Shown: positions 3,772 through 36,715 of the stretch, in pieces
Numbering within the stretch: the stretch's first letter is position 1
How the letters are laid out: every line of letters starts with the position of its first letter
IMG/VR virus record: IMGVR_UViG_3300044950_001016
Coordinates: 1 to 44,061 of that record
Length of the DNA stretch: 44,061 bases
DNA from: a virus
Direction: 5' to 3' (one strand)
Notes under the pieces: generated by a model
Databases searched by the model: none
Told to the model about the DNA's origin: nothing
Seen by the model: only the letters and a program-made list of their open reading frames with translations
Translations under genes and position numbers: made by a program

Positions 3772-6714
3772 CTAATACCAGGTGCTCGCCCGGATCGGGG
3801 CCATCCGCACCGGGATCTTGTGCTTGGCCGCGAAGTCCACCGCCGCCCGGTGCGCGCTCGGGCTAACGGTGGCCAGGTCGTGCGGCAGGACCATCTCCGC
3901 GATATCCCTGGTCCAGTCGATGCCGCCGTGGAACTGCGCCTCGAAGTACTGGGCCCGGTAGCGCCGCTGCACGCTCGTGAATAGCTCGTCGACGTCGGAC
4001 GCCGCGGTAACGGCGCCAGTCCCGCCGACGGCCCGGATCGCCTCCTCCATCGCGTCGTGGGCGCTTGCCGCCTCGCCGAGGGCCGACCCGGAGCTATTGC
4101 CGCGGGTAAACGTAGTGCGCGCCTTGACCTCCGGCTTTAGGCGCAGGTAGGCGTCGCCGTACATACTAGCCGCGCCGCCCTCGGTGCCGGCCAGGTGCAG
4201 CGCGCCATAGATCGGCCGCTCGGTTGGCTTGCCCTTCTCGTAGTTGTCCCCAAAGATTGACCGCTCCCACGAGCCGCGGGCCGATAGGTTGGTCGACCCG
4301 TTGCCGTGGCCGGTCTCGAATAGGCTCTTGCTGCGCCCGGCCTCCGTCGCGAGCTCCATGATCGTTTTGCCGCCCACCTTCTTGCCGGCCGGGACGTTGA
4401 CCGTCAGGTCCACCGACGCGAACTTGCCGCGCAGCCGGTCAAGGTCGGCCTTGGAGAACTTGGCCTCCAGCGCCTTGGCGATACGGGCCCGCTCCTCCTT
4501 GTAGCCCCGACCCACCGCGGGGTCCTGGACGTGGTCATAGGCCTTGCGCTGAACGGGCGTTAGGCGCTTGAGCTCCGCGTCCGCCAGCGCCGGGTCCACG
4601 CCGCGCAGCAGCGCCGCCTTGGCCGCGCCAGCCGCGGCGGGCGCCAGGACGGGCGCGCCGGTAGCGGCTGCGACGGGCGCCAGACCGAAGTCGGCCCACT
4701 CCTTGGCCGCCATTGCGGTCGCCTCGGCCAAGCTGCGCCCGTAGCCGAGCAGCTGCCTGGTGCGGATCGCCTTGAACTCGGCCTCCGTTAGGCCGGCCGT
4801 TCGCACGCCGCCCAGCGGGCCCAGGACCAAGGCCTTGCGCTTGCCGGACAGGAGCGTGGCCTCGCCGACGCCGCCCGATCCGGTGATCGACACGACGTGG
4901 GTATAGGTGCCGGTGAAGGGCGCCGCCGCCAGGGTTGCCGCGGACGGGTGCTTGGGCGGGGCCGCGGGCTTGGGCGCCGGCGCCGCCTTGGGCGGGGCCA
5001 CCACGCCAGAGGCCGCGGCCTTGGCCGCCGCCTTGGCCGCCGCGCTGGCCTTGAGCCCGGCCGAGATCTTGGCCGACGTCGCGGCCTTCTTGGCCGCCAG
5101 GGCCGCGGCCTCCGCTGCCTTGGTCGCCGCCGCCGCGGCTGCCGCCGCGGCAGCCTTGGCCGCCTCCTCGGCCTTGCGCTTGGCCTCCGCCTCCGCCGCG
5201 GCCTTGGCCACGCGCTTGGCCTCCGCGGCCGCCTTGAGCCCCGCCGAGATCTTGGCCGCGATCTCCGCCTTGCGCTTGGCCTCAGCCTCGGCCGCCAGGC
5301 GCTTGGCCTCCGCCTCGCGCGCCAGGCGCTCGGCCTCCACGCGGGCCGCCTCGGCCGCCACGCGGGCCGCCTCGACGGCCGCCGCCTCCGCGGCCGCCTT
5401 GGCCACGCGCTTGGCCTCCGCGGCCGCCTTGAGGCCCGCCGATATCTTGGCCGCGATCTCGGCCTTGCGCCGCTCCGCGGCCTCAATGGCCACGCGCCGC
5501 TCCTCTGCCTCCCGCGCCAGGCGCTCGGCCTCCAGCCTTGCGGCCTCCGCCGCCGCGCGGGCCGCGGCCTCGATCGCCAGGCGGCGCTCCTCGGCCTCCG
5601 CCGCCAGGCGGGCAGCCTCCGCCAGGCGCTCGGCCTCGGCCACGCGGGCCGCCTCCGCCGCTACCCTAGCCGCCGCCTCGGCCGCCGCTCGGCGCCGGGC
5701 GTGGCTGGCCCGCAGGCCTTCCGAAACACTGGCCCCGAACGCCGCCCGCTTGGCCGCCGCCCGCTCGGCCACCGCGGCAGCCCGCCGCGGCGCCATGAAC
5801 GCGGCGTGCTCGGCCGCCGCCGCCTCAGCCTCGCCGGCCACTGGAGCAGGCGGTGTCGCGCGGGACCCGGCCGCCGGGTGGAGGATCGGGATCGCCACGC
5901 AGCGGCATTGGATCGGCTGGCCCGGGTAGGCCTCCTCGCCGTCCAGGACCGGCAGCGCGTCCCAGGAGAACTCCTGGCCGTTGACCGCCCGGTGCGACGG
6001 GCGCACGCGCTCGTCCAGGCTCGACGACCAGCGAAACCACTGGACGCCGGCCGCCTGCTGGCGGGTCTTGGCCAGCGAGCCCGTGAACTTGGCCACCTGG
6101 TCCCGGGCGATCAGCGCCGCCCGGCTGGCCCCGTTGTCGAAGCGGGCGTTGATCCTCTTGGCGAGCTCCGTATGCCGCTCGCCGGCGGTCATCGCGTCGA
6201 CCACCTGGCCCTCGATCTCGGCGAAGGTGTCGCTTGTAAGGGTGCGAATCCGCGCCACGTTCTCCCGCACCCAGGCCTCGCGGGCGAAGCGCAGCGCCGG
6301 GTTGTCGGCGAACACGTTGACCGCGGGCACCTTGCCGCCGACCTTGCGCTCGGCCTCCTTGGCCGCCAGGGCCAGCAGGCGGGCGTGCGCCGCCGCGCCA
6401 GCCGCGTCGACCGCGCTAGCCGTCCGGGCGATCTCGGCCGCAAGCTCCGGGCTGTTCAGCGTGCGCCCCATCCGAAGCTCCACCGCCCCAAGGGTCCGGC
6501 GGACCAGGCCCGGCAGGCCGGCGTCGTCGGCCTTGGCAGCGGGGCCGGCGCCAGGCGCCTGGCCCTGGGCCTGGGCGTACTGCTCCAGGACCGGGGCCAT
6601 CGCCTCCAGGGTCGCCCGGCGGGCCGGCTCGACCACCTGGCGCAGGATCAAGCGCAGGTAGCCGGCCGCCTCCGCGTCGGGGTGGCGCACAAGACGCCTC
6701 GCGGGCGCGGGCAT
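3772..6714 (-). CDS. head morphogenesis protein (Mu gpF/SPP1 gp7-like) with long Ala-rich coiled coil and DUF3626-like C-terminal domain
   Basis: 980 aa, far longer than the 250-450 aa typical of this family. Residues 1-290 form the minor head protein domain: a 'LIARDQVAKFTG' helix near 200, 'LDERVRPSHRAVNGQEF' near 233-249 and 'YPGQPIQCRCVAIPI' near 260-275, the family signature. Residues 290-600 are almost entirely Ala/Glu/Lys/Arg heptad-like helix with an internal duplication. Residues 690-980 end in a separate domain with 'RPIYGALHL', 'YGDAYLRLKPEVKARTTF', 'RGNSSG' and 'YFEAQFHGG', which I recognise as the DUF3626 pattern. SD AGGAGGG precedes ATG 6714, three bases after the portal stop. 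gp7/F-type proteins enter the head and are sometimes fused to toxin or ADP-ribosyltransferase domains. I therefore infer an effector carried in the virion and possibly ejected; the activity is unknown. Confidence 0.8.
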   Translation of the reverse strand: MPAPARRLVRHPDAEAAGYLRLILRQVVEPARRATLEAMAPVLEQYAQAQGQAPGAGPAAKADDAGLPGLVRRTLGAVELRMGRTLNSPELAAEIARTASAVDAAGAAAHARLLALAAKEAERKVGGKVPAVNVFADNPALRFAREAWVRENVARIRTLTSDTFAEIEGQVVDAMTAGERHTELAKRINARFDNGASRAALIARDQVAKFTGSLAKTRQQAAGVQWFRWSSSLDERVRPSHRAVNGQEFSWDALPVLDGEEAYPGQPIQCRCVAIPILHPAAGSRATPPAPVAGEAEAAAAEHAAFMAPRRAAAVAERAAAKRAAFGASVSEGLRASHARRRAAAEAAARVAAEAARVAEAERLAEAARLAAEAEERRLAIEAAARAAAEAARLEAERLAREAEERRVAIEAAERRKAEIAAKISAGLKAAAEAKRVAKAAAEAAAVEAARVAAEAARVEAERLAREAEAKRLAAEAEAKRKAEIAAKISAGLKAAAEAKRVAKAAAEAEAKRKAEEAAKAAAAAAAAAATKAAEAAALAAKKAATSAKISAGLKASAAAKAAAKAAASGVVAPPKAAPAPKPAAPPKHPSAATLAAAPFTGTYTHVVSITGSGGVGEATLLSGKRKALVLGPLGGVRTAGLTEAEFKAIRTRQLLGYGRSLAEATAMAAKEWADFGLAPVAAATGAPVLAPAAAGAAKAALLRGVDPALADAELKRLTPVQRKAYDHVQDPAVGRGYKEERARIAKALEAKFSKADLDRLRGKFASVDLTVNVPAGKKVGGKTIMELATEAGRSKSLFETGHGNGSTNLSARGSWERSIFGDNYEKGKPTERPIYGALHLAGTEGGAASMYGDAYLRLKPEVKARTTFTRGNSSGSALGEAASAHDAMEEAIRAVGGTGAVTAASDVDELFTSVQRRYRAQYFEAQFHGGIDWTRDIAEMVLPHDLATVSPSAHRAAVDFAAKHKIPVRMAPIRASTWY
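5201..5470 (-). repeat. internal duplicated coiled-coil coding segment
   Basis: Two near-identical stretches of about 70 bases, at roughly 5201-5272 and 5396-5470, encode the same run (AEIAAKISAGLKAAAEAKRV). A third degenerate copy (KISAGLKASAAAKAAAK) lies near 5036-5090. The intervening DNA is also Ala/Glu/Arg coiled coil. The pattern suggests the helical spacer of the 980-aa head protein grew by tandem duplication. Confidence 0.7.
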
Positions 6715-8413: not shown

Positions 8414-9931
8414 CTACCATTGGGCCATCTGCTCGGCGAAGCCGCCGGAGCACGGGTTTTCGCGCAAGTATCGGAGCAGCTGCGAAGTCGCGTCCACCTG
8501 GTCCGCGCTGGGGTGGACCGGGTAGGCCGTGAGCTCGCTTTCGTACTCCACCGCCCACGGCTCCGGGGCGTCGGGCAGGTGGAAGCGCCCCGCCTCAATG
8601 GCCGGGCTCTCGACGTTGTAGCGGGTCCACTTGTCGCCGTGGCCGACCGGGTCCATCGCGACGGGCACCGGCTCAAACTCGGGGTCGACGCGAAGGTCCG
8701 CCAGCAGCTGCTGCCCGCTATGCTTGTCCTCGACGAGCACCACGTTGGGCCGCCACCTGGCCGCCAGGCCCTTGGCCCGCCGCCGCAGGTCCGGGTAGAG
8801 CAGGCGCTCGCGCTCGACCGCCAGGACGTAGACGTCTTGCCCGACCTCGCCGACCGTGACGCACGCGCTGAAGGCCGCCCCGGCCGCCTGGCTGCCGGCG
8901 GTGTCCCAGGACTGGACGATCCGGTCGAAGGCCGCCGGCGGGGTCCCGTAGCGCGCCCGGTTGAGCCAATCGGACTTGACGACGCTGCCGCCGTATTGGC
9001 TCGGCCGCTGCTGGTACAGGGCGCTCCAGAAGTAGGCGCTCAAGGTCGCCTTGATCGCCTCCAGGGCCGCAAGCGGGAAGCGCTCGGCGTGCAGCGGCTC
9101 GCCCTTGGCCCGGTGCGGCTCGTCGGCCTCGGCGATGGCCGCGAAGTCGAGCACCTCCCAGCGGTCGCCCTTGCCGGCCGCCATGTCCGCCAGGCGCCGG
9201 CCGGTCAAGTCGTCCTTGTGCCAGCGGGTGGCCATCAGCAGCACGCCGCCGCCAGGCGCGACGCGGGTGTAGGCCGTCGACCCGTACCACTCATCGATAA
9301 GCTCGCGCCGCTGGGCGCTGCTGGCCTCGGCCGCGTCCTTGATCGGGTCGTCGATGATTAGGAAGGTGCAGCCGTGGCCCGTCAGGGCGCCGCCCACGCC
9401 GGTGCTCTTGTAGCGGCCGCGCACCTCGTTGCCCAAGGCGTCCAGCGGCCCGCCGGTCATCCAGTCGCGCACCTTGTCGATATCGTTCCGATTCCAGGCG
9501 CCGCCGTCCGCAATGGCCCGCCGCCGTGGCCGCAGGTCCGGGAACACGCGCAGGGCCACGTCCGACCGGGCGATCTCGCGCGCCGCCCGGGAGTGCGAGT
9601 CGGCCAGGTCCTGGGCGTAGCTGGCCACGATGAACTCGTTGCCAGGGTAGCGGCCCAGCACCCAGGCCGGGAAGCGCTGCGAGACGATGGTGCTTTTGCC
9701 GTGGCGCGGTGGCGCCGCCACGATCAGCCGCGGGCTCTCGCCACGGGAGACCGCCTCGGCGAAGGCCTCCAGGCGCTCGCAAAGGACGCGGTGAAACCAG
9801 CCCGGCTTGAAGCCCGGCGTGGTCAGCACCACGAAGTCCAGCAAGCTGTCGCGAGCCCTGGCCGCGGCCCGGCGCAGGCGCTCGCCCTGGACGTCCATCA
9901 GCGTGGGCAGCGCCTTGGCCGCGGCCGCCAT
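8414..9931 (-). CDS. terL: terminase large subunit
   Basis: 505 aa, the ATP-driven packaging motor and headful nuclease. The ATPase domain has Walker A 'AAPPRHGKST' near residues 72-81, an adenine-binding region before it, Walker B 'FLIIDDP' near 190 and the coupling 'LLMATRWH' near 230. The nuclease half has 'RIVQSWDTAG' near 325-335 and 'VVLVEDKHSGQQ' near 405-415, matching the acidic residues of the RNase H-like terminase nuclease (TIGR01630-type C-terminus). GAGGG stands about ten bases before ATG 9931, inside the end of the small-subunit gene. Order terS-terL-portal-head is canonical. Confidence 0.93.
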   Translation of the reverse strand: MAAAAKALPTLMDVQGERLRRAAARARDSLLDFVVLTTPGFKPGWFHRVLCERLEAFAEAVSRGESPRLIVAAPPRHGKSTIVSQRFPAWVLGRYPGNEFIVASYAQDLADSHSRAAREIARSDVALRVFPDLRPRRRAIADGGAWNRNDIDKVRDWMTGGPLDALGNEVRGRYKSTGVGGALTGHGCTFLIIDDPIKDAAEASSAQRRELIDEWYGSTAYTRVAPGGGVLLMATRWHKDDLTGRRLADMAAGKGDRWEVLDFAAIAEADEPHRAKGEPLHAERFPLAALEAIKATLSAYFWSALYQQRPSQYGGSVVKSDWLNRARYGTPPAAFDRIVQSWDTAGSQAAGAAFSACVTVGEVGQDVYVLAVERERLLYPDLRRRAKGLAARWRPNVVLVEDKHSGQQLLADLRVDPEFEPVPVAMDPVGHGDKWTRYNVESPAIEAGRFHLPDAPEPWAVEYESELTAYPVHPSADQVDATSQLLRYLRENPCSGGFAEQMAQW

Positions 9932-9934
9932 TGG

Positions 9935-10465
9935 CTAGCCCTCGTCGTCGTCGTCGTCCATCGGGCCCAGCGCCGGCATAGGCGCCAGCGCACGCGCGGG
10001 CGCCGCCCTGGCCGCGATAGGCGCGGCCTTGGCCAGCAGGGCCTCCAGCTGCTCTAGCTCGGCGTCGGTCAGGTTGGCCAGGTCGGCGCCGGTCGTGACG
10101 CTGGTGTGCAGGCGCATCGGCGCGCCGTCGGCCCCGGTATGCTCGACGCGGGTCCGCCCGTAGCTCTCTGGGAAGCGCCGCTCCATCTTCCAGGCCGCGG
10201 CCCGCCAGTCGCCGTCGGCCGCCGCCTTGTCGATCAGGCCGGCCCACTTGACCAGGGCGTCGCCCTTGGCCCGCTCAATAGCCTGGCGAAACACGCGAAA
10301 CGCGGCCCGGCCCCGGACGCCAGGGTCGCCCCAGGTCATCCAGCGGTGGAAGGTCTCGTAGCTCACGCCGGCCCGAAGGCAGGCGTGCTCGTAGGTTAGG
10401 CCCACGCGCACGCCTTGGACGATCGTCTCTTGGGTTTCAGGGGTCAGCTTGGTCGGCCTTGCCAT
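9935..10465 (-). CDS. terS: terminase small subunit
   Basis: 176 aa. The start at 10465 is chosen because AAAGGA lies six bases upstream; a longer reading to 10528 has no RBS and overlaps another gene. The N-terminus is a helix-turn-helix of terminase small-subunit type: 'TPETQETIVQGVRVGLTYEHACLRAGVS' then 'ETFHRWMTWGD'. A helical oligomerisation segment and 'GDWRAAAWKMERRFPESYGR' follow, common in this family. The C-terminus is Ala/Pro-rich and ends in an acidic DDDDDEG tail that may contact the motor. It recognises the packaging site and hands DNA to the large subunit, whose gene follows after three bases. Confidence 0.85.
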   Translation of the reverse strand: MARPTKLTPETQETIVQGVRVGLTYEHACLRAGVSYETFHRWMTWGDPGVRGRAAFRVFRQAIERAKGDALVKWAGLIDKAAADGDWRAAAWKMERRFPESYGRTRVEHTGADGAPMRLHTSVTTGADLANLTDAELEQLEALLAKAAPIAARAAPARALAPMPALGPMDDDDDEG

Positions 10466-10595
10466 CGGGGTCCTTTCGCGGGCGCGGTGGCGCGGGGTCA
10501 CTCTGCCGCCAGGCCACCGCGAAGGCAAGCGCCAGAAGGTAGGCCGCCAGGCCGACGCCCAGCGTGGCCAGGGCCAGGGCCAGGGCTGGCCTCAG
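10437..10595 (-). CDS. possible 52-aa single-span membrane peptide with CTG start
   Basis: The stretch between the formyltransferase stop (10592) and the terS start (10465) has an open frame. It encodes a clear hydrophobic span (ATLGVGLAAYLLALAFAVAW) followed by a charged, Pro-rich tail ending at 10437. The only sensible start is CTG at 10595, overlapping the upstream TGA as CTGA; no in-frame ATG or GTG is well placed and the SD is poor. The hydrophobic profile and the otherwise empty 126 bases make it plausible, but the GC-rich composition could produce Leu/Ala runs by chance. Confidence 0.3.
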   Translation of the reverse strand: MRPALALALATLGVGLAAYLLALAFAVAWRQSDPAPPRPRKDPDGKADQADP

Positions 10596-11239
10596 TCGGG
10601 CGCCTTGGCGCCTTGGCGCGCCGCCTTGGCGGCCAGGGTCGTCGGGTGCCAAGACTGATAGGTCGCGCCCTCCAGCGGCTGCGGGTCGCCGGCGGGGCCG
10701 TCGTTGCGCTCGCAGCGCTCCAGGGCAGCGTCCAGGGCGTCGAGCGCCAGCGGGATCAGCTGCGTCTGGTACAGGTCCAGCGGACTGGCCAGGCCGGGCA
10801 CAAGGCTGGCCAAGGACTGCGCGCAGATCGGCCCGGTGTCCAGGCCTTGGTCGGCCCAGAACCAGGTCGAGCCCACCACGCGGTCGCCCTCGTAGAAGGC
10901 CCACTTGACCGCGTCCGGTCCGCGCCGCGCTGGGAGCGGTGACGGGTGGCAGACCAAGGTGCCCAGGACCGGCGCCCGGCGCTCGGCGCCGCCGAGCACG
11001 CGCCGCAAGCTCGGGGCCAGGGCCAGGCGGGCCTCGCCAGGCGACGCCGCCAGCTTCCAGCCGCGCTGCAAGGCAAGCTCGGCGCAGGCGAGCACGAACT
11101 CCGCGCCCGGCCCGGTCGCCGGCCCGGGGTGGATGTACAAGCAGCCAGGCCCGCTCGCGCGGTGGCGGGAGCAGCGCACCTGGTGGGCCAGCCCCGGGAC
11201 GGTGCCAGGTTCGTCACAATATCGGCATCTTGCGCTCAT
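10592..11239 (-). CDS. formyltransferase-family protein with N-terminal Cys cluster
   Basis: 215 aa, ATG overlapping the upstream stop as ATGA. Residues 90-140 match the core of the formyl_trans_N fold of Met-tRNA formyltransferase and GART: 'HPSPLPARRGPD' (98-109), then 'WAFYEGDRVVGSTWFW' and 'DQGLDTGPI' (130-138). The catalytic His (H98) and Asp (D134) are present, but the usual Asn two residues before the His is Val96. The N-terminus has C5xxC8 and C23/H26, a small zinc-knuckle-like cluster. It is shorter than tRNA formyltransferases and lacks their C-terminal domain. Located between a winged-helix gene and the terminase genes, downstream of ParB and ABC-GNAT. I infer a formyl or one-carbon transfer step in a base- or amino-group modification; the substrate is unknown. 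Confidence 0.72.
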   Translation of the reverse strand: MSARCRYCDEPGTVPGLAHQVRCSRHRASGPGCLYIHPGPATGPGAEFVLACAELALQRGWKLAASPGEARLALAPSLRRVLGGAERRAPVLGTLVCHPSPLPARRGPDAVKWAFYEGDRVVGSTWFWADQGLDTGPICAQSLASLVPGLASPLDLYQTQLIPLALDALDAALERCERNDGPAGDPQPLEGATYQSWHPTTLAAKAARQGAKAPD

Positions 11240-11688
11240 GGTGCCCTGGTGGCCAGGCCGTAGAGGCCGGCCGATAGCCGCAGGGCCTTGCCCTCGCGGA
11301 TCAGCTGTTGCAGCGCCGTGGCGACGGTCGCCTCGGTCGTATCGTTCGCCAGGGCCACGCCCTCCAGGATGTCGCGCCGTTGGCAGCTGCCGCCCCGTAG
11401 CCGCGCCAGGATCTCGCTCTTGATCGGCACGCGGGCCCGGTCAGCGGCCGCCAGGTGCGGCGGGCGATCCGCAGGCGCCTGGGCCGCCGGCGCCGGCGCC
11501 ACGCGCGCCGTCGGCGCCGTTGGCGCGGGCGCCTCGGCCGGGGCGCCGGCCAGGGCGCGCAGCAGGTCCAGGGCCTCGGGCATGGCCGCGAGCTCCTGCG
11601 CGATGGCCCGGCGCCTGGCCTTGATCGCGTCCGCCTTGGCGTCCAGGTCGACCACCTCGCGCGCCAGGTCTCGCAGCTTGTCGCCCAC
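11236..11688 (-). CDS. coiled-coil / winged-helix protein, 150 aa
   Basis: GTG start at 11688, one base after the ABC-GNAT stop, with GAGGAGG upstream inside that gene; a longer ATG reading to 11805 overlaps it by over 100 bases and is rejected. The N-terminal 45 residues are helical and charged (DKLRDLAREVVDLDAKADAI). The middle is an Ala/Pro linker. The C-terminal 65 residues read as a winged helix-turn-helix: 'IKSEILARLRGGSCQRRDIL', then 'TEATVATALQQLIREGKAL' and a 'LYGLA' wing. Probably DNA-binding, either regulatory or targeting for the neighbouring modification-type enzymes. It ends overlapping the formyltransferase start. Confidence 0.65.
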   Translation of the reverse strand: MGDKLRDLAREVVDLDAKADAIKARRRAIAQELAAMPEALDLLRALAGAPAEAPAPTAPTARVAPAPAAQAPADRPPHLAAADRARVPIKSEILARLRGGSCQRRDILEGVALANDTTEATVATALQQLIREGKALRLSAGLYGLATRAP

Positions 11689-11689
11689 G

Positions 11690-12841
11690 TTAGCCTCCTC
11701 GAGTAGTACCGGGCACGCGGTCGCGCCCGTAGAAGCGAAAGCCCTGGACCGCCCTGAAGTGCCCACCGTAGCCGCTGCCGCCGGCCCCAGGGTAAAGGTT
11801 CGCATTGAGGGACTCGCGGGACTTGACCTTCTGACCGCCGTGGAGCACGGCCGACACCTGCCGCCAGCCCGGCCTGTTGCGAAGCGCCGCGCATAGGCCC
11901 GGGTGCGAAGTGTGAAAGATCGTCGTCATCTGGCGCCCGGCCAGGCGGCCCTCGCCGCGTAGCTGGAGCAGGCAGATCTCCTCCAGGAAGCGCACGCCGA
12001 TGCCCGCGCCTTGCCACTCGGGCATCACGACCAAGCGGCAGGCGCGGGCCTCGACGGCCTTGCCCACGTTCTTGGTCGCGACGCCCAGGTGGCAGACCGG
12101 CTCGCCGTCCACGAAGCCGACGTAGTAATAAGCCCCGATCATCAATGGAGCTTTCAGATAGTGATGCGGAGCAAAGTATGGCCACCACTTGCCGTCGTCA
12201 ACCTTGCGGATCTCCAGGTCGAAGGGTGGCCGTGGTCGAAGCCACCTCCCGCGGTGAAACTCGCCGCTCGCGGTGTCCAGCACCCAGTCGGGCTGGAGCC
12301 AGTCCAGCACGTCGTAATGGCAGGACAGCAAGACGGCCTGCGCCCCGGTCCGCCGCCAGGCCTTCGCAAAGGCCAGGGCCCCGAACTTAGCGATCTGCCG
12401 GTCGACCACGCTGGAGAACTCGTCGATCACCACGCGGGGCGGGGCCTCGCAGATCACGCGCGCCAGGTCGGCCCGGAAGCGCTCGCCGTTGGAAAGGGCC
12501 CCGTAGGGCCGCAGCCAGGTCGGGACGCTGCCCAGGCCCACGCCCGAAAGCGCCGCGGTCACCTCGTCGAAGCTGCCGCCGGGCGAGATTGCGTCCACGA
12601 TCGGCCCGTCCGGCCAGGCCGGGGCCCAGAGCGCGTCCTGGCCCCAGATGGCCCGGCCGACGCTGGTCTTGCCAGAGCCCGACGGCCCGACCACCACGCC
12701 CAGCCGCCAGGCGTGGTCATCGATCGCCAGGTCGACGTCCAGGTTGAACTCGGCGCCGCTGTCGCAGTTGAATAGGCTCTTGACGCGGGCCGCGCGGTAG
12801 CTGTTGAAGTCGGCGCAGCTGTTGCGGATTCTTACCTGCAT
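11690..12841 (-). CDS. ABC-type ATPase fused to GNAT (Mom-like?) acyltransferase
   Basis: 383 aa. Start at 12841 with AAGGAG upstream; a longer reading to 12985 has no support. Residues 45-190 form a complete ABC ATPase: Walker A GPSGSGKTS (52-60), signature LSNGE (116-120), Walker B VVIDE (137-141), D-loop SSVVD and switch H175. No membrane segments are present, so it is a soluble, SMC/Rad50- or UvrA-like ATPase and not a transporter. Residues 205-383 form a GNAT domain with 'YVGFVDGEPVCHLGVAT' and the acyl-CoA loop VMPEWQGAGIG (272-282). An 'FAPHHYL' motif precedes it (223-229). GNATs acting on phage DNA include Mu Mom, which modifies adenine; a Mom-like role here is inference from domain type and context with ParB, formyltransferase and terminase. 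Confidence 0.8.
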   Translation of the reverse strand: MQVRIRNSCADFNSYRAARVKSLFNCDSGAEFNLDVDLAIDDHAWRLGVVVGPSGSGKTSVGRAIWGQDALWAPAWPDGPIVDAISPGGSFDEVTAALSGVGLGSVPTWLRPYGALSNGERFRADLARVICEAPPRVVIDEFSSVVDRQIAKFGALAFAKAWRRTGAQAVLLSCHYDVLDWLQPDWVLDTASGEFHRGRWLRPRPPFDLEIRKVDDGKWWPYFAPHHYLKAPLMIGAYYYVGFVDGEPVCHLGVATKNVGKAVEARACRLVVMPEWQGAGIGVRFLEEICLLQLRGEGRLAGRQMTTIFHTSHPGLCAALRNRPGWRQVSAVLHGGQKVKSRESLNANLYPGAGGSGYGGHFRAVQGFRFYGRDRVPGTTRGG

Positions 12842-13176
12842 CGGTGCTCCTTGCGGGCGGCCCCCACCATGGCCGGGGTGTTCTGGTTGGCCCCGCGCCA
12901 CGACGCCGCGACCTTGCCACAGCAGCAGCAAAGCAAGACGCCGGCGTCCACCGCTGGCCAGCCCGGGTCGACGCGGATTGAGCACGACGTCAAGAGCTCG
13001 GCCCGGACCGCAGCCAGGTCGGCCCCGCCAGGCGCGCCGACGTAGGCGCCGCCGGCCAGGACCTCGCAGAGCTCGAAGGGCCCGTCGGGGCCATCGCCCT
13101 GGACCAGCACGTCGCCGGCCCAGACCGCGAAGGGCCCGGTCGCCGGGTTGTCCTTGAGCTTGCGCTGCCTGGCCAT
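12832..13176 (-). CDS. small Cys-rich protein of the ParB/ABC-GNAT cluster, 114 aa
   Basis: ATG at 13176 overlaps the upstream TAA (TAATG); the stop overlaps the ABC-GNAT start by ten bases, so translation is coupled on both sides. Residues include C37, C65 and a run of four Cys at 83-86 ('LLCCCCGK'), plus C113. This could bind a metal or cluster. The basic N-terminus (MARQRKLKD) precedes a beta-like segment. No family recognised. Its place inside the cluster suggests an accessory of the ATPase-acyltransferase. Confidence 0.6.
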   Translation of the reverse strand: MARQRKLKDNPATGPFAVWAGDVLVQGDGPDGPFELCEVLAGGAYVGAPGGADLAAVRAELLTSCSIRVDPGWPAVDAGVLLCCCCGKVAASWRGANQNTPAMVGAARKEHRCR

Positions 13177-13457
13177 TAGCGGGCCCGCCCGACGCTGGCC
13201 AGGCGCTGCGCCTGGGTGGCGGGCTTGCCGGCCACGGCCACGACCGGACGGCGCTCGATCACGACCGGGCGCCCGCGGGTCCCGCACTTGAGGCAGATCG
13301 GCTCGACCACCTCCAGGGCGTGGCGGTCCGTACCGTGGCCCGCGTCGACGTTGCAAAGGGTGCCGACGCGAACCACCTGGTGCGCGCACCACAGCTGCGT
13401 CCACCGCAGGCGCAGGCGCTGGCCAGCAAAGGAAAGCCACAAGATGATCGGGTGCAT
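13176..13457 (-). CDS. small putative zinc-binding protein, 93 aa
   Basis: ATG at 13457 with GGAGGG about four bases upstream, eleven bases after the ParB stop. It has C24, C35 and a C55xxC58 pair ('ICLKCGTRG'), a possible zinc ribbon, and a basic C-terminus. The N-terminal 'HPIILWLSFAG' is hydrophobic but too short and interrupted for a confident membrane span. Unrecognised otherwise. Overlaps the next gene by one base, so it belongs to the same transcript. Confidence 0.6.
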   Translation of the reverse strand: MHPIILWLSFAGQRLRLRWTQLWCAHQVVRVGTLCNVDAGHGTDRHALEVVEPICLKCGTRGRPVVIERRPVVAVAGKPATQAQRLASVGRAR

Positions 13458-13468
13458 ACGCCCTCCGG

Positions 13469-14200
13469 CTAGGTCACGACGACGCGGCAAACGTAGCCCG
13501 CGGCGGTCAAGTCGTTGTAGACGCGCTCCTGCTTGGCCGCGTCCTCGCAATGGATCAAAACCGCGTACTGCTCGCGGTAGCGGCCCGCCCCGACGTCGGG
13601 CACGCGGCTCGCGTCGTTGCCGTCGGCCGGTGGCCCGGGCGCGGGCCCTGGCCCGCCGCCCGGTGGCTCCGGCGGGGCCGCCTGGCCAGCCTGGTCTGTT
13701 GGTCCGCCAGGCGTGGCGGGCGCCGCCGGCGCCGGCGTGGCCGGCGGTGGGGTGGTCGCGCCGACCTCGACCAGCAGCCGGTCCAGGTCCGCGTCGGTCC
13801 AGCCTACGGACTCCAGCGCCACGGCGTCCTCGTCGCGGATCTCGTCCAGCAGGACCGCCAGGGCCTCGCGGTCGTCGTCGGAGCCGCGGGCGAGCTCGTT
13901 GTCGGCCGCAAGATAGGCGCGCGCCTCCGCCTGGGAGCAGGCCCACGGCGCCACGGGTACGGTCGTCCAGCCCTCTAGGCGCGCCGCCTCAAGGATGCCA
14001 TGCCCGGCCAGAACTACGCCCGAGGGCGTCTGAACGACGATCGGTTTGCGGAAGCCGCGCAGGCGTAGGCTGGCCCGCAGGGCGCGGATCTGCCCGGGCG
14101 GGTGGCGCCGGTAGTTTTGCGGGTTGGCGCGAAGGGACTCGATTGGCCATTGCTCGACGGCCAGATCGGCGGGCGGTGCGGTGCGGTCGGTCGTGGTCAA
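13469..14200 (-). CDS. ParB/Srx-fold protein with Pro/Ala linker and conserved C-terminal motif
   Basis: 243 aa, started at TTG 14200 because GGAGG lies six bases upstream; the ATG at 14407 would place 69 arginine/proline-rich, non-homologous residues in front. Residues 15-110 match the ParB N-terminal nuclease/CTPase-type domain: 'PIESLRANPQNYRRHPPGQI', 'SLRLRGFRKPIVVQTPSGVVLAGHG' and 'LAADNELA'. A 60-residue Pro/Gly/Ala linker follows, then a C-terminal 'YAVLIHCEDAAKQERVYNDL' and 'GYVCRVV' motif seen in other phage ParB-like or methyltransferase proteins. It heads the gene cluster leading to the ABC-GNAT, directly downstream of the repeat region. Roles could be DNA nicking, partition-like binding or targeting of modification enzymes. 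Confidence 0.8.
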   Translation of the reverse strand: MTTTDRTAPPADLAVEQWPIESLRANPQNYRRHPPGQIRALRASLRLRGFRKPIVVQTPSGVVLAGHGILEAARLEGWTTVPVAPWACSQAEARAYLAADNELARGSDDDREALAVLLDEIRDEDAVALESVGWTDADLDRLLVEVGATTPPPATPAPAAPATPGGPTDQAGQAAPPEPPGGGPGPAPGPPADGNDASRVPDVGAGRYREQYAVLIHCEDAAKQERVYNDLTAAGYVCRVVVT

Positions 14201-14432: not shown

Positions 14433-14673
14433 TTTGCGGTGGGGTCCAGCGTTTTGCGTGGGGTCTGGCAATCGGCATCGCGCCGCGCGGGTGCGGGCGC
14501 GCTACGTTATGGACCGGGGGGGACCCACCGCAGAACTCAATAATAATCAATAGGCTTGTAAAGTACCCCACCGCAAGCGGCCTCTTTCTAGCGGGTTGCG
14601 TTGCGGTAGGTTCTGCGGTGGGTCCACCGTTTTGGCCCTGGACCCACCGCAAAAGCGCGGGACCCCACCGCAA
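14433..14673. repeat. iteron-like repeat array with AT-rich patch; candidate replication origin
   Basis: Non-coding stretch 14201-14679 holds repeated TTTGCGGTGGGGTCC-like units. Plus-strand copies lie at 14433-14447 and 14614-14625. Inverted copies lie at 14521-14532, 14565-14576, 14640-14652 and 14660-14673. Degenerate copies lie at 14452-14465 and 14601-14610. The copies at 14614-14625 and 14640-14651 form a perfect 12-bp inverted repeat with a 14-base loop. An AT-rich segment (14533-14566) stands out from the GC-rich surroundings and could be a DNA unwinding element. The array lies just downstream of the primase-helicase and upstream of ParB. Repeats plus AT-rich patch beside replication genes is the usual origin layout; a regulatory operator array is the alternative. 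I see no convincing gene in 14201-14679. Confidence 0.7.
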
Positions 14674-14679
14674 GCGCCA

Positions 14680-18919: not shown

Positions 18920-19858
18920 CTAACCTCCCGGGAACTGGCGCACGCGCAGGGCCTCGGGCCATTCAAGCCAGTCGCCGCCGTGGCCGGCGTCCACCAGGCG
19001 AATCCGGCCGGTCTCCCGGTCGACCGGGCCCGGGCCCTCGGGCCAGCCGTGCGGGTCGCTAACGTCGCCGAGCACCGGGCGGGCGCCCATCTGCTTGACG
19101 AAGCAAGGCACGCCAGACCTCGCGCACACCTCCACCAGGTCGCGCGCCCAGAGCACGTCGAACGGCCGCGCGCCAGGCCCGCTCTCGCCGCCGACAATGA
19201 TCCAGCCGATCGGCGTGGGCGTGGCGTGCGACGTCAACGTCGGCCACGGCGCCAGGGTCGCCGGGACCGCGTCCAGGTCGACGGGGCCGAGCAGCGGCTC
19301 CATGGACAGGAAGCGAACGCTCGCCGGGATCTGGAGCAGCAGCGGGACGCGCTCGTCCGCCCGCGCCTGGTCCTCCACGGACGTCCCGACCCAGACGTTG
19401 GCCGGCGGGTAGCCCGCCAGCCAGGCCGCCAGCATGGACGCCAGCCCGGCGGGCTGGTCGCGGCAGTAAAGCGCCGCCTCGATCCTGCTCCTCCAGGCCT
19501 CGGGGCGCTTGGTCAGCAGCTGCCAGTCCAGCCAGCCGCGGGTGCAGAGCACCAGGTAGAGCAGGTCGGCCAGCCACTCGGCCGGGACTTCGCCGTCCAG
19601 CCAGTCCGCCAGGCTGGCGCAGAACACGCGCTCGCGGCGCCCGGCCAGGCCGGCCTTGCGGGCCCAGGACGTGGGCTCGCGCCAGTAGGCCTCGCTTGTG
19701 CGCTGCCGCGCCTGGCCAGGGCCCCACTTGATGCCCTTGACCCTGGCCACGGGGCCGGCCTCGGCGTAGCAGTTAGCGCAGCCCGGGCTCACCTTGGAGC
19801 ACCCGACCCACGGGTTGAAGGTGTGATCAGTCCACGAGATACCAGTTACCTTGCCCAC
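18920..19858 (-). CDS. DUF5131 family protein (phage Gp37/Gp68-like)
   Basis: 312 aa, GTG start at 19858 with GGAGGG about eight bases upstream. The family signature is clear: 'ISWTDHTFNPWVGCSKVSPG' with C20, C27 and C30, then 'ANCYAE'. Later come 'SLADWLDGEVPAEW', 'WLLTKRP' (here WQLLTKRPEAW), 'VWVGTSVEDQ', 'FLSMEPLLGPV' and 'WIIVGGESGPGARPF', and finally 'FVKQMG'. The three-Cys motif and TIM-barrel-like pattern resemble radical-SAM relatives, but the cysteine spacing is not the classical CxxxCxxC, so the chemistry is unresolved. Frequent in phages and mobile elements. Located after a DNA adenine methylase, which would fit a nucleic-acid modification role. Confidence 0.88.
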   Translation of the reverse strand: MGKVTGISWTDHTFNPWVGCSKVSPGCANCYAEAGPVARVKGIKWGPGQARQRTSEAYWREPTSWARKAGLAGRRERVFCASLADWLDGEVPAEWLADLLYLVLCTRGWLDWQLLTKRPEAWRSRIEAALYCRDQPAGLASMLAAWLAGYPPANVWVGTSVEDQARADERVPLLLQIPASVRFLSMEPLLGPVDLDAVPATLAPWPTLTSHATPTPIGWIIVGGESGPGARPFDVLWARDLVEVCARSGVPCFVKQMGARPVLGDVSDPHGWPEGPGPVDRETGRIRLVDAGHGGDWLEWPEALRVRQFPGG

Positions 19859-21241: not shown

Positions 21242-22569
21242 TACTTTCTCCAATCTAGCGCGGACTTGCGAAGGTTGTACTGCACCCAGGTCCATCCTGG
21301 GCGGTGGCCCTTCTCCCGGCGCTCGTGGTCGACCTTGCGCCACAGGTCCCAGTCGATCGCATCGGCCGCCTTGACCGGCCGGTCGGTCACGGCCTGAAGC
21401 TCGCCAGCCAGGGCCTCGAAGGACCGGACCGTGAGCGGGAGCCGGGCCCCGCAGCGCGGGCAGTTGTCCGGCCGCGGGGTCGACGCGAAGCAGGCGTAGC
21501 ACTCGCGGCAGGTGGTGATGGAGAGAATCCGCGCCCGCTTGGCGGCCTCTTTGGCCAGGGCGTCGGTCTCGACCGGGTCCTCGACGTAGCCGTGGCGGGC
21601 GAAGTTGCCGCCGTGATCGTGGACGTGGCAGTCCACCTTGCCGTCGAAGCAACGCAGCCCGCGGCCTATGGTTTGGCGCCAGATGATCTCGCTCACGGTC
21701 GGGCGGGCCATGCTCACGGCCGAGACCTCCGGGCAATCCCAGCCCTCGACCAGGACGTCAAAGGTGGTCAGGACCCGGATCTCGCCCCGGGCGTGCGCGG
21801 CCAGAAGCTCGCGCCGGTGGTCCTTGGGCAGCCCGCCGTGGATGCAGGCCGACGGGAGCCCGGCCGCCGCGAAGCCAGCGGCCAGGTCGTGGGCGTGCTG
21901 GACGTTGGCCGCGAAGGCCACGCCCAGGCGGTCCCGGGAATGCGTGACGTAGTGACCGACCACGTCGCCGACCACCGCTAGGGAGTCGCCCGCGTTGGGG
22001 TCGGCAAAATAAACCGGCGGGACCAGCCAGCCCGCGCGGATGAGCTCGCGCACGCTCGGGCCCTGGACCACGACGTCGGCCGCGTGGCCCAGCCCGCGCC
22101 GGTCGGTGCGCTTGGGCGTGGCGGTCAGGATGATGCGCCAGGCGTTTGGCCAGGCGTCTAGCAGCTGCCGGTAGGTGGTGGCCGCGGCCCGGTGGCCCTC
22201 GTCCATCACCAGGATCGTGGGCTCTGGCAGCTTGTCGGCCCGGTTGGCCATCGCGACGACGGAGCCCAGCAGGATAGGCTCGCCGCGGTTGGGCTCGCCC
22301 GGGGCCCGCACGCGCAGGCCGACCCGGGCGAACGACCTAGCGGCCTGGTCCAGGATCTCCTGCCGGTGGGCGGTGAAGGCCAGCGTCGCGCCGAGCTCCG
22401 CCGCGGACGCGGCCAGGGTGGCAACGGTGGCGGTCTTTCCCGCGCCCGTCGGCATCACCAGGACCGCGCCCACGGCGCCGCCAGTGTAGGCGGCCCGGAG
22501 CTCGTCAATCGCTTGCAGCTGGTAGGGCCTGGCGGTTAGGCCTTTGCCGGTGGTGGCGGTCTGGTCCAT
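21241..22569 (-). CDS. SF2 DEAD/DEAH-box helicase with C-terminal zinc finger
   Basis: 442 aa; ATG 22569 chosen because the conserved region begins at residue 12, and an earlier Met at 22653 lies within the upstream HTH gene. Motifs in order: Q-like 'TARPYQLQAIDEL', I 'MPTGAGKTA' (39-47), Ia 'FTAHRQEILDQ', II 'VMDEGHR' (about 121), III 'LTATP', V 'TFDVLVEGWD' and VI 'QTIGRGLR'. The tail has 'CRECYACF..CPRCGA', a zinc ribbon. This is the RadD/UvrB-like phage helicase type, usually involved in replication fork or recombination processing, and forms a unit with the following VRR-NUC nuclease. Confidence 0.9.
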   Translation of the reverse strand: MDQTATTGKGLTARPYQLQAIDELRAAYTGGAVGAVLVMPTGAGKTATVATLAASAAELGATLAFTAHRQEILDQAARSFARVGLRVRAPGEPNRGEPILLGSVVAMANRADKLPEPTILVMDEGHRAAATTYRQLLDAWPNAWRIILTATPKRTDRRGLGHAADVVVQGPSVRELIRAGWLVPPVYFADPNAGDSLAVVGDVVGHYVTHSRDRLGVAFAANVQHAHDLAAGFAAAGLPSACIHGGLPKDHRRELLAAHARGEIRVLTTFDVLVEGWDCPEVSAVSMARPTVSEIIWRQTIGRGLRCFDGKVDCHVHDHGGNFARHGYVEDPVETDALAKEAAKRARILSITTCRECYACFASTPRPDNCPRCGARLPLTVRSFEALAGELQAVTDRPVKAADAIDWDLWRKVDHERREKGHRPGWTWVQYNLRKSALDWRK

Positions 22570-34813: not shown

Positions 34814-35260
34814 CTAGCTCCAGAAAGCGGGAGGCCCGCCGGTTGTCCAGGTGCCAGTCCGGGCCCAGGCGTCGATCACCGTGGCCAGGGCCAGGGCCGG
34901 GGCCAGGGCGTCCGCCGTGGGCGGTAGCGCCGGGAGGGTAACAGGCGCGGGTGGTGGCGTCGCCACGACGCCAGGCACGGCGCCGGCCGCGACCGTGGCC
35001 GCGTAGGCCGCCAGGCCGTTGACTAGCGCGGCGGGCCCGAGCGGGAGGCCCATCGCCGCCGCCATCGCAGCGGCCGCGGCCGCATGCGTACCGGGCACCA
35101 CGGCCGGGGCCACCAGGCCGCCGAAGTAGGCCAGGGCCACGCCAGACCAGCGCTCCCTAACGGCGTCCGGGCCGGGTGGCCAGCCCAGAAAGCCCGGGTT
35201 GCTCGGGTCCGTGGTCACGAGGATCGCCGCCAAAAGCGTGCCCGAATTAAGCGGCATCAC
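34814..35260 (-). CDS. hypothetical baseplate-region protein, 148 aa
   Basis: Starts at ATG 35260 overlapping the spike gene stop, ends two bases before the gp25-like gene. Ala/Pro-rich, with 'LAAILVTTDPSNPGFLGWPP' early and 'ALATVIDAWARTGTWTTGG' late, and a central Ala/Met helix. Not recognised. A comparable small protein lies between spike and gp25 in several contractile phages, so a baseplate role is likely. Confidence 0.6.
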   Translation of the reverse strand: MMPLNSGTLLAAILVTTDPSNPGFLGWPPGPDAVRERWSGVALAYFGGLVAPAVVPGTHAAAAAAMAAAMGLPLGPAALVNGLAAYAATVAAGAVPGVVATPPPAPVTLPALPPTADALAPALALATVIDAWARTGTWTTGGPPAFWS

Positions 35261-35877
35261 GGCACCTTGACGACGGTGGATAGCTCCGCCGCGGTCAGGC
35301 CAGCGACCGCGGGCCCCGACGGCCCGAAGGCAGTTTGCACCGACAGCTGCGTGGTCAGCCAGGTGGAGAAGGCGTTGCCGCGCACCAGCGCCTGCGCCGC
35401 GGCCATCGCCCCAAGGCGAAGCTCCTGCCCGGCGCCCACCGCCAGGACCGCGTGGCCCGTAGGCACGCCGTCTAGGGCCTGGGCGCGCGGGTACAGGCCC
35501 GGGAGCGCGACCATGCCCGACAAGCCGCCGCGCCGGTCCTCCGCCGGGGCGGTTACGTCGCCGGCCTTTTGCCAGGCGTCCAGGCAGACCGCCGACGGCA
35601 GCAGCGTCACGCGGTCGCCAGGCTGGAGCGGGAAGGTCAGCGAAGCCCCGCCGCCCCGTGGCCAGACCACCGGGACGTCTGGCAGCACCGGGTGGTTGAC
35701 CTGGTTGCCGTCCTCGTCCCGGGTCGCCGGCTCGGGCTGGACGTCGGCCACCTGCTTGGCCGCGTCGTAGCTCAGGACCTTGCCGGGCAGCACGCCGGAC
35801 AAGGCCAGGGCCAGGCGCGCGTCGACGACGTGCTCGATCAGGGCCAGGAGCTCCTCGGCCGCAAGTAGGGACGCCAC
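35257..35877 (-). CDS. Gp138-like membrane-puncturing spike protein
   Basis: 206 aa, started at GTG 35877 with GGGAGG upstream, one base after the hub stop; the long ATG reading to 36117 overlaps the hub gene and is rejected. 'GKVLSYDAAKQVADVQPEPA', 'DVPVVWPRGGGASLTFPLQP' and 'GDRVTLLPSAVCLDAWQKAG' match the Gp138 N-terminal OB-fold domain. A repeat-free tip with 'LDGVPTGHAVLAVGAGQELR' follows. It forms the trimeric central spike at the tail tip. Confidence 0.85.
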   Translation of the reverse strand: MASLLAAEELLALIEHVVDARLALALSGVLPGKVLSYDAAKQVADVQPEPATRDEDGNQVNHPVLPDVPVVWPRGGGASLTFPLQPGDRVTLLPSAVCLDAWQKAGDVTAPAEDRRGGLSGMVALPGLYPRAQALDGVPTGHAVLAVGAGQELRLGAMAAAQALVRGNAFSTWLTTQLSVQTAFGPSGPAVAGLTAAELSTVVKVP

Positions 35878-35878
35878 G

Positions 35879-36715
35879 CTAACCTCCCACCGGCGTAAGG
35901 TCGACGGTGCTTGTCCACTTGCCGGCGTCGTGGGTGTCGCCCTCGTGCTCGACCTTGTCGACGCGAAAGTTGCCCGACAGGCTCGCCCGCAGGCCCACCA
36001 GGCGCCCGGGGCGCAAGAGCGGGTTGAGCAGCGAAACGGCCCGCACGCGCCCGTTGTGGCCGCCGCTGGTGCCCTTGCCGCCCTTGGCCCGCCCCGATGG
36101 CTCTGGCGAGCCGACAAGGCCCGTCTCCGGGGCGAGAATCACCATCGTCTCGGTGGTCGTACCGTCGATCGGCACCAGCGCCAGGGCGCCATCCTGGATC
36201 GACCACTCCAGCCCCAGGCTGGTAGCGATCACGCCCAGCGGGTAGGCCGCCGGCCCGGAGACCGTGATCGGGCTCTCGTAGGACGCTTGCCCCAACAGGG
36301 CCAGGGTGGCGTCGGAGACCGCCACGCCCAGGACGCCGGCCAGGTGCTCCACGACCTCGCGCTTGGGCGTGCCCGCCCGCCAGGAGCGCCGCGCCAGGCG
36401 CCGGATCGCCGCGTCGCCATCGTTGGCGCGGATGGCCGTTTCCCAGTCCTGACCCTTGTGCTTGTGGACCGCGTCCCAGAGCTCGCCCGCGAACAGGACC
36501 GCCGCCTGCTCCTCGTAGCCCGCCTCCAGGCGGACGGCCAGGCCATGCTCGGCCACGCGGGCGCGGGACTCCTCGCCCAGGTTGTAGATAGAGATCTCCG
36601 CCTGGTTTGGCTTGCCGCTCGTAGACTTGGCGACCTTGAACGCCACGCGCAGGCCGCGCCACTGGCGGTCGCCGACCGTCAAGGCGCAGGTGCGCCCGTA
36701 GAGGCGCGCGCTCAC
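35879..36715 (-). CDS. baseplate hub protein (gpD/gp27/gp44-like)
   Basis: 278 aa, GTG 36715 (GTGA overlap with the plug gene; GGAGG upstream). N-terminal 'YGRTCALTVGDRQWRGLRVA' and 'NQAEISIYNLGEESRARVAE', then 'GELWDAVHKHKGQDWETAIR', 'REVVEHLAGVLGVAV' and a late 'LRASLSGNFRVDKVEHEGDT' plus 'KWTSTVDLTPV' strand. These are the signs of phage hub proteins that cap the tube and hold the spike. Neighbours are plug and spike. Confidence 0.82.
   Translation of the reverse strand: MSARLYGRTCALTVGDRQWRGLRVAFKVAKSTSGKPNQAEISIYNLGEESRARVAEHGLAVRLEAGYEEQAAVLFAGELWDAVHKHKGQDWETAIRANDGDAAIRRLARRSWRAGTPKREVVEHLAGVLGVAVSDATLALLGQASYESPITVSGPAAYPLGVIATSLGLEWSIQDGALALVPIDGTTTETMVILAPETGLVGSPEPSGRAKGGKGTSGGHNGRVRAVSLLNPLLRPGRLVGLRASLSGNFRVDKVEHEGDTHDAGKWTSTVDLTPVGG

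Follow-up and report, generated by a model that had tools for sequence, protein, structure and literature searches.

A conserved ParB, ABC-GNAT and formyltransferase gene unit beside phage terminase genes as a candidate DNA-base modification system

The sequence analysed here (hereafter the window) is the IMG/VR viral record IMGVR_UViG_3300044950_001016, 44,061 bases long with a GC content of 0.72, in which six open reading frames (ORFs), all on the minus strand, are packed from position 14200 down to 10592 upstream of the terminase genes terS and terL. ORFs and start/stop overlaps were taken from the sequence, and the window proteins were scanned against the Pfam, PHROGs and PADLOC families. 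The first gene of the cluster (13469..14200; TTG start with AGGAGG ahead) encodes a ParB/Srx-domain protein that ends in a C-terminal tail module of ~35 residues. It is followed by two small cysteine-containing ORFs (13176..13457 and 12832..13176, overlapping each other by 1 nucleotide), a gene for an ABC ATPase fused to a GNAT acyltransferase (ABC-GNAT; 11690..12841, overlapping the second Cys ORF by 10 nucleotides), a gene for a putative winged-helix-like protein (11236..11688; GTG start, after a 1-nucleotide gap) and a gene for a formyltransferase-fold protein (FT; 10592..11239, overlapping the preceding gene by 4 nucleotides). Within the cluster, neighbouring genes overlap by 1 to 10 nucleotides or are separated by 1 to 11, confirming the initial annotation, which had described six co-oriented genes with overlapping or nearly touching ends. 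Its statement that they run straight into terS-terL holds for the gene order, but is slightly generous in wording, as 126 nucleotides separate the end of the FT gene from the start of the gene for TerS (9935..10465, minus strand, with an ATG start at an approximate position; phrog_4102, 4e-28), behind which lies that for TerL (8414..9931, minus strand; PF03237/PF17289; phrog_38, 5e-99).

The family scans bore out the ParB, ABC plus GNAT and formyltransferase assignments made previously, but gave no convincing Pfam or PHROGs match for the two Cys ORFs and the winged-helix-like protein, the last of which had no significant match in the PDB either. Since no family was matched, the labels "zinc" and "winged helix" remain by-eye calls. 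A membrane permease domain was not found in the cluster proteins scanned with Pfam and PHROGs, a permease of the host lying beyond that scan.

Relatives of ABC-GNAT are numerous. A tblastn search matched 64 phage records, 27 of them across at least 80% of the query length, and scans with ABC-GNAT confirmed about 400 relatives among viral contigs and a further set of about 400 in bacterial genomes. Gene neighbourhoods were compared in two sets, the first with 84 loci (80 kept viral-contig loci, three phage records and the window) and the second with 80 loci from bacterial genomes. ParB or its C-terminal module stood beside ABC-GNAT in 80 of the 84 loci and FT in 73; seven of the 11 loci without FT cannot be scored, because their sequence ends right at the ABC-GNAT gene. 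In the bacterial set, which going by record titles covers a wide range of phyla (Pseudomonadota, Planctomycetota, Acidobacteria, Verrucomicrobia, Chloroflexi and others), ParB or the tail module adjoined ABC-GNAT in 79/80 loci and FT did so in 66/80. The initial annotation had named as its refutation that ABC-GNAT would occur mostly without ParB or FT, and the bacterial counts went the other way. Over both sets, about 160 loci, the module is almost always adjacent to ABC-GNAT, with FT in about 85%. The Cys ORFs and the winged-helix gene have no relative at the other ABC-GNAT loci of the 84-locus set and are local passengers of the window. It is clear that the conserved unit comprises three genes only, namely ParB with its tail module, ABC-GNAT and FT; the earlier view of all six genes as one system, correct for these three, was dropped for the rest.

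The unit is also present in isolated phages, Gordonia phage NHagos and Pseudomonas phage Komp_PAO1_1. Genes 1 to 4 of NHagos encode ParB, ABC-GNAT, FT (gene 3, PF00551) and terminase; the public label "tRNA-methyltransferase" on gene product 3 of Gordonia phages looks wrong, the gene being FT. ABC-GNAT (matched from residue 54) and FT occur together on the IncP conjugative plasmid pKV29 as well (locus L173).

ABC-GNAT is a single protein of 383 amino acids that is covered as a whole by phrog_11143 (4e-135), a family listed by PHROGs as of unknown function, and that gives Pfam matches to PF00005 (1e-5) and Acetyltransf_7 (2e-4). Walker A, LSNGE, DEF, the D-loop, the H-loop histidine (His175) and the GNAT motif PEWQGAG(I/V)G are kept in 53 homologues. 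In the AlphaFold model (mean predicted local distance difference test score, pLDDT, 79.5; predicted template modelling score 0.57) residues 1-205 form the ABC domain and residues 205-372 a GNAT domain, which aligns to GNAT structures and so combines the fold with the acyl-CoA motif. ABC chains dominate the structure search, and the substrate of the GNAT half cannot be read from it, because that half matches generic GNATs only (IAA acetyltransferase, RimI). The tie to Mom of phage Mu drawn in the initial annotation failed at the sequence level: comparison of Mom with the ABC-GNAT profile gave an hhalign probability of 0.3%, and Mom had no tblastn match in related ABC-GNAT loci.

The ParB part of the window protein matches PHROG families 723, 620 and 498 (8e-29 to 6e-27; phrog_723, 8e-29) and the PADLOC model MTase_II (1.5e-12), and the same ParB domain type occurs on phage DNA methyltransferases (phrog_498, MTase_II). 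A ParB-like protein, DpdB, participates in DNA base insertion (PMC12839542). The tail module, which makes up the final ~35 residues of the window protein (YREQYAVLIHCEDAAKQERVYNDLTAAGYVCRVVVT), is also encoded in many proviruses as a stand-alone protein of ~50 amino acids immediately ahead of ABC-GNAT. It was matched in 24 phage records, in all of which it sits at the ABC-GNAT gene, and divergent copies were recognised by eye at the ends of two other ParB proteins, those from P335 and EastWest. The tail module is thus the most constant partner of ABC-GNAT and the ParB domain an optional addition. On the tree, the ParB-fused and stand-alone forms require nine changes, at least three of them on well-supported branches; as judged from these sequences the two layouts have switched, yet are mostly bound to clades. 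The label "acr candidate" on a small ORF of Porphyromonas phages looks wrong, the tail module being the better reading.

In Mu-like phages the tail module stands alone, without fusion to ParB. In Porphyromonas phage 007a the tail module, ABC-GNAT and FT are the final genes, ending at 34,883 of 35,050, and com-mom of Mu (35,768-36,602 of 36,717) also lies at the genome end. A search of the ABC-GNAT loci with Mu proteins returned many matches to Com, Mu's translational activator of mom, and none to Mom. With a Com profile, 76 of the 93 loci with a stand-alone tail and none of the 66 with a ParB fusion were found to have a homologue upstream of ABC-GNAT, at a distance of about 80-430 bp, and two matches lay elsewhere; about 70 of the 76 are convincing, since about six have fragmentary, non-significant domain matches (L037, L093, L104, L106, L112, L140). 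A representative was assigned by Pfam to PF10122, "Mu-like prophage protein Com". Komp_PAO1_1 also has Com (22108-22224), in a frame that differs from the annotated one, and the profile did not detect it in the Porphyromonas phage.

The company that Com keeps was surveyed by scanning viral contigs with Com and identifying the next gene, whereby loci are picked by similarity to Com and not by the gene that follows. Of 100 loci (L179-L278) three were cut off, and among the 97 counted the gene after Com encoded a D12-class adenine methyltransferase (39), an N6/N4 methyltransferase (38), a C5-cytosine methyltransferase (2), Mom (14, most of them near-identical relatives of Mu), the ABC-GNAT module (3) or, behind a weak Com match, an unrelated protein (1). 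For each of the three methyltransferase classes, Pfam confirmed representatives. Mom or a DNA methyltransferase thus follows Com in 93/97 loci, the methyltransferases far more often than Mom, and from these counts Com travels with DNA-base modifying enzymes; it seems to accompany the DNA-modification genes of phages in general. Among its partners the ABC-GNAT module alone has a putative chemistry, and a role on DNA is suggested for it by association. By analogy, the Com link together with the com-mom position strongly supports DNA-base modification, and the cluster very probably contains a phage system for it.

The chemistry is approached through FT, which matches PF00551 in the window (4e-12). 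The FT family profile retrieved from the PDB the hydrolase domain of 10-formyl-tetrahydrofolate dehydrogenase (FDH, ALDH1L1; 2e-44) ahead of Fmt (2e-29), ArnA (1e-19), PurN-type/GART enzymes (7e-17) and HypX (4e-11), and in a Foldseek search with the FT model, FDH and HypX fill the first 12 places, with Fmt and ArnA close behind. The Asn-His-Asp active site of PurN, Fmt and ArnA is only partly present: His98, Ser100 and Asp134 are kept in the window FT, but the canonical asparagine, two residues before the catalytic histidine, is replaced by valine. At this position (Asn106 of PurN) asparagine is found in PurN, Fmt and ArnA, isoleucine in FDH and valine in HypX, and in the phage proteins the residue is Gly, Ala, Ser, Ile or Val, with asparagine in none of the 136 relatives that have the motif. 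The 54 aligned phage FTs, in which this position holds Gly, Ala, Ser or Val, share the His, Ser and Asp without exception. In FDH the formyl group goes to a thiol, that of the phosphopantetheine on the carrier domain, and for HypX the proposed product is formyl-CoA (PMC6802093). By sequence and model, FT appears nearest to this thiol-acceptor type rather than to the amine-formylating type, from which a supply of acyl donor is more likely than formylation of an amine carried on a base. The initial annotation had suggested delivery of an acyl or formyl group to bases or to base-borne amines; the part concerning DNA modification is well supported, while for FT itself donor supply is the more likely task.

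In the mechanism proposed, FT would move the formyl group of 10-formyl-tetrahydrofolate onto a thiol, most likely that of CoA, as suggested by its family and active site, and the GNAT half would use the resulting formyl-CoA to formylate the exocyclic amine of a DNA base. The ABC half may bind DNA in an ATP-dependent manner, and recruitment or aiming of the complex before packaging may fall to ParB plus the tail module or, in Mu-like phages, to the stand-alone tail protein. Judged from sequence, the full formyl-CoA route is plausible and held tentatively, whereas the proposal as a whole, weighted between this route and DNA-base modification, is reasonably likely. In its most specific form, in which phage FT makes formyl-CoA, a GNAT driven by the ABC half places the formyl group on exocyclic amines of bases, with an upstream Com in Mu-like phages or a fused ParB elsewhere, and the formylated base is one not known so far as a programmed phage DNA mark, it is possible, though doubtful. 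A 2023 paper on deazaguanine reportedly described formylated deazaguanine in phage DNA.

The reverse order of the two enzymes survives best among the alternatives. GNAT would here add an aminoacyl group such as glycyl to the base, after which FT would formylate the free amine of that group, in the manner of Fmt on Met-tRNA. Mom, a member of the GNAT family, is described in the relevant passage of PMC7824862 as taking an acyl group, for example glycyl, from CoA and placing it on N6 of adenine. Amines are the substrates that most PF00551 enzymes formylate, and Fmt and ArnA stand above HypX in the sequence search; nevertheless, the GNAT-first order is disfavoured because FT lacks the catalytic asparagine of the amine-formylating enzymes compared (PurN, Fmt and ArnA) in all 136 family members with the motif and is nearest to thiol-acceptor enzymes, which renders it unlikely. 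Alternatively, GNAT could acylate DNA with acetyl-CoA or another acyl-CoA of the host, with FT as an accessory in folate/CoA handling or as a regulator. ParB, ABC and GNAT are indeed kept in relatives without FT, and phage Jace has, in place of FT, an aspartate decarboxylase of the PanD type, an enzyme that produces the beta-alanine for CoA. Against this, about 85% of the close family, spread across many phyla, retain FT, and the GNATs of FT-bearing systems have invariant residues and a C-terminal extension of their own, although these are confounded by clade and were not used as proof; this alternative is quite unlikely. That the target is tRNA or a host protein would be in line with the frequent action of GNATs and formyltransferases on such substrates and with the resemblance of the GNAT half of the model to RimI, but the com-mom position, the DNA-modifying enzymes that Com otherwise precedes, the methyltransferase-associated type of ParB and the adjacent terminase make it improbable. 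A chance grouping of unrelated morons ahead of the terminase, which the three window-specific genes might have suggested, has a negligible probability and is already refuted for the three-gene core, since the clustering recurs in about 160 other loci, the order ParB/tail, ABC-GNAT, FT being found in Gordonia, Pseudomonas and Porphyromonas phages and across bacterial phyla.

Several observations weigh against the proposed mechanism or its application to the window. Distant relatives in the phages Jace, EastWest, P335 and MismyG and in Oenococcus phages have no adjoining FT, for which reason formyl is unlikely as the donor there, and they show that ParB, ABC and GNAT can occur with a different donor. 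When only sequence is compared, HypX comes after Fmt and ArnA, the formation of formyl-CoA by HypX is no more than a proposal, and the FDH sequence of the active-site comparison came from the alignment output of the profile search. Loss of the asparagine could mean another acceptor or a weak activity, and the usual N-terminal region is missing from the window FT (pLDDT below 50 for residues 1-29). Furthermore, the window has no Com, so that the Com link is transferred to it by homology, at an ABC-GNAT identity of about 60-68%. Finally, N6-formyladenine is chemically labile.

In Jace, gene product 87 (L280:4074-4496) is the aspartate decarboxylase (PF02261, 2e-33) that follows ABC-GNAT, and it might supply beta-alanine or CoA to GNAT. 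The FT of the Porphyromonas phage is short like that of the window and has the HPSPLP and TWFWA motifs in common with it. Used as sole query, the window FT found no relative in viral contigs, owing to its divergence.

Among known systems, com-mom of Mu (PF10122 and PF25680) resembles the unit in genome position, in Com upstream in the Mu-like relatives, in a GNAT-superfamily enzyme and in the proposed DNA modification, but the cluster has neither Mom nor a detectable homologue of it, adds an ABC ATPase and FT, and in the window has ParB instead of Com; the mechanism would thus be like that of Mom, a GNAT acting on DNA, without being Mom by sequence. The hydrolase domain of FDH is closest to FT by sequence, and this domain and the N-terminal domain of HypX are closest by fold; both share with FT the kept His and Asp and the missing canonical Asn, whereas FT is a stand-alone phage protein with a putative acceptor. 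TmcA, a helicase-GNAT that makes N4-acetylcytidine in tRNA, likewise joins an ATPase to a GNAT with a nucleic-acid base as target, but has an RNA substrate and an ATPase of the helicase type. Acyl modification of DNA by ABC-GNAT proteins was predicted by Iyer et al. in 2013, as restated in a paper on jumbo phages (PMC7824862); this prediction and the cluster have in common an ABC ATPase coupled to a GNAT, phage origin and predicted base acylation, and the passage restating it makes no mention of FT, Com or the tail module. No description of the three-gene unit including FT was found in the literature searched, the 2013 article lying outside that search. ABC-GNAT DNA acylation had therefore already been predicted, while the Com link, the tail module and the FT assignment appear to be new.

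Elsewhere in the window, TTGCGGTGGG(G)TCC is repeated several times, in either orientation, at positions 14434-14675 between the primase-helicase and ParB genes, and near-exact copies of TGCGGTGGGTCC are more numerous in the window than in every one of 100 shuffles; from their sequence, the repeats at 14434-14675 might serve as origin iterons or be bound by a DNA-binding protein of the phage, for example ParB. A DUF5131 protein is encoded at 18920-19858 (PF07505, 1.7e-66; also matched by the PADLOC candidate models PDC-M41B/M30B), and a Mu F-like head protein carrying a C-terminal DUF3626 domain at 3772-6714.

The module is common, and if it does mark DNA, a widespread protective modification has taken over the mom locus. 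If formyl-CoA is indeed the donor, this would be a chemistry with very few known uses. Com would moreover mark the DNA-modification genes of phages in general and offer a simple way to find more of them.

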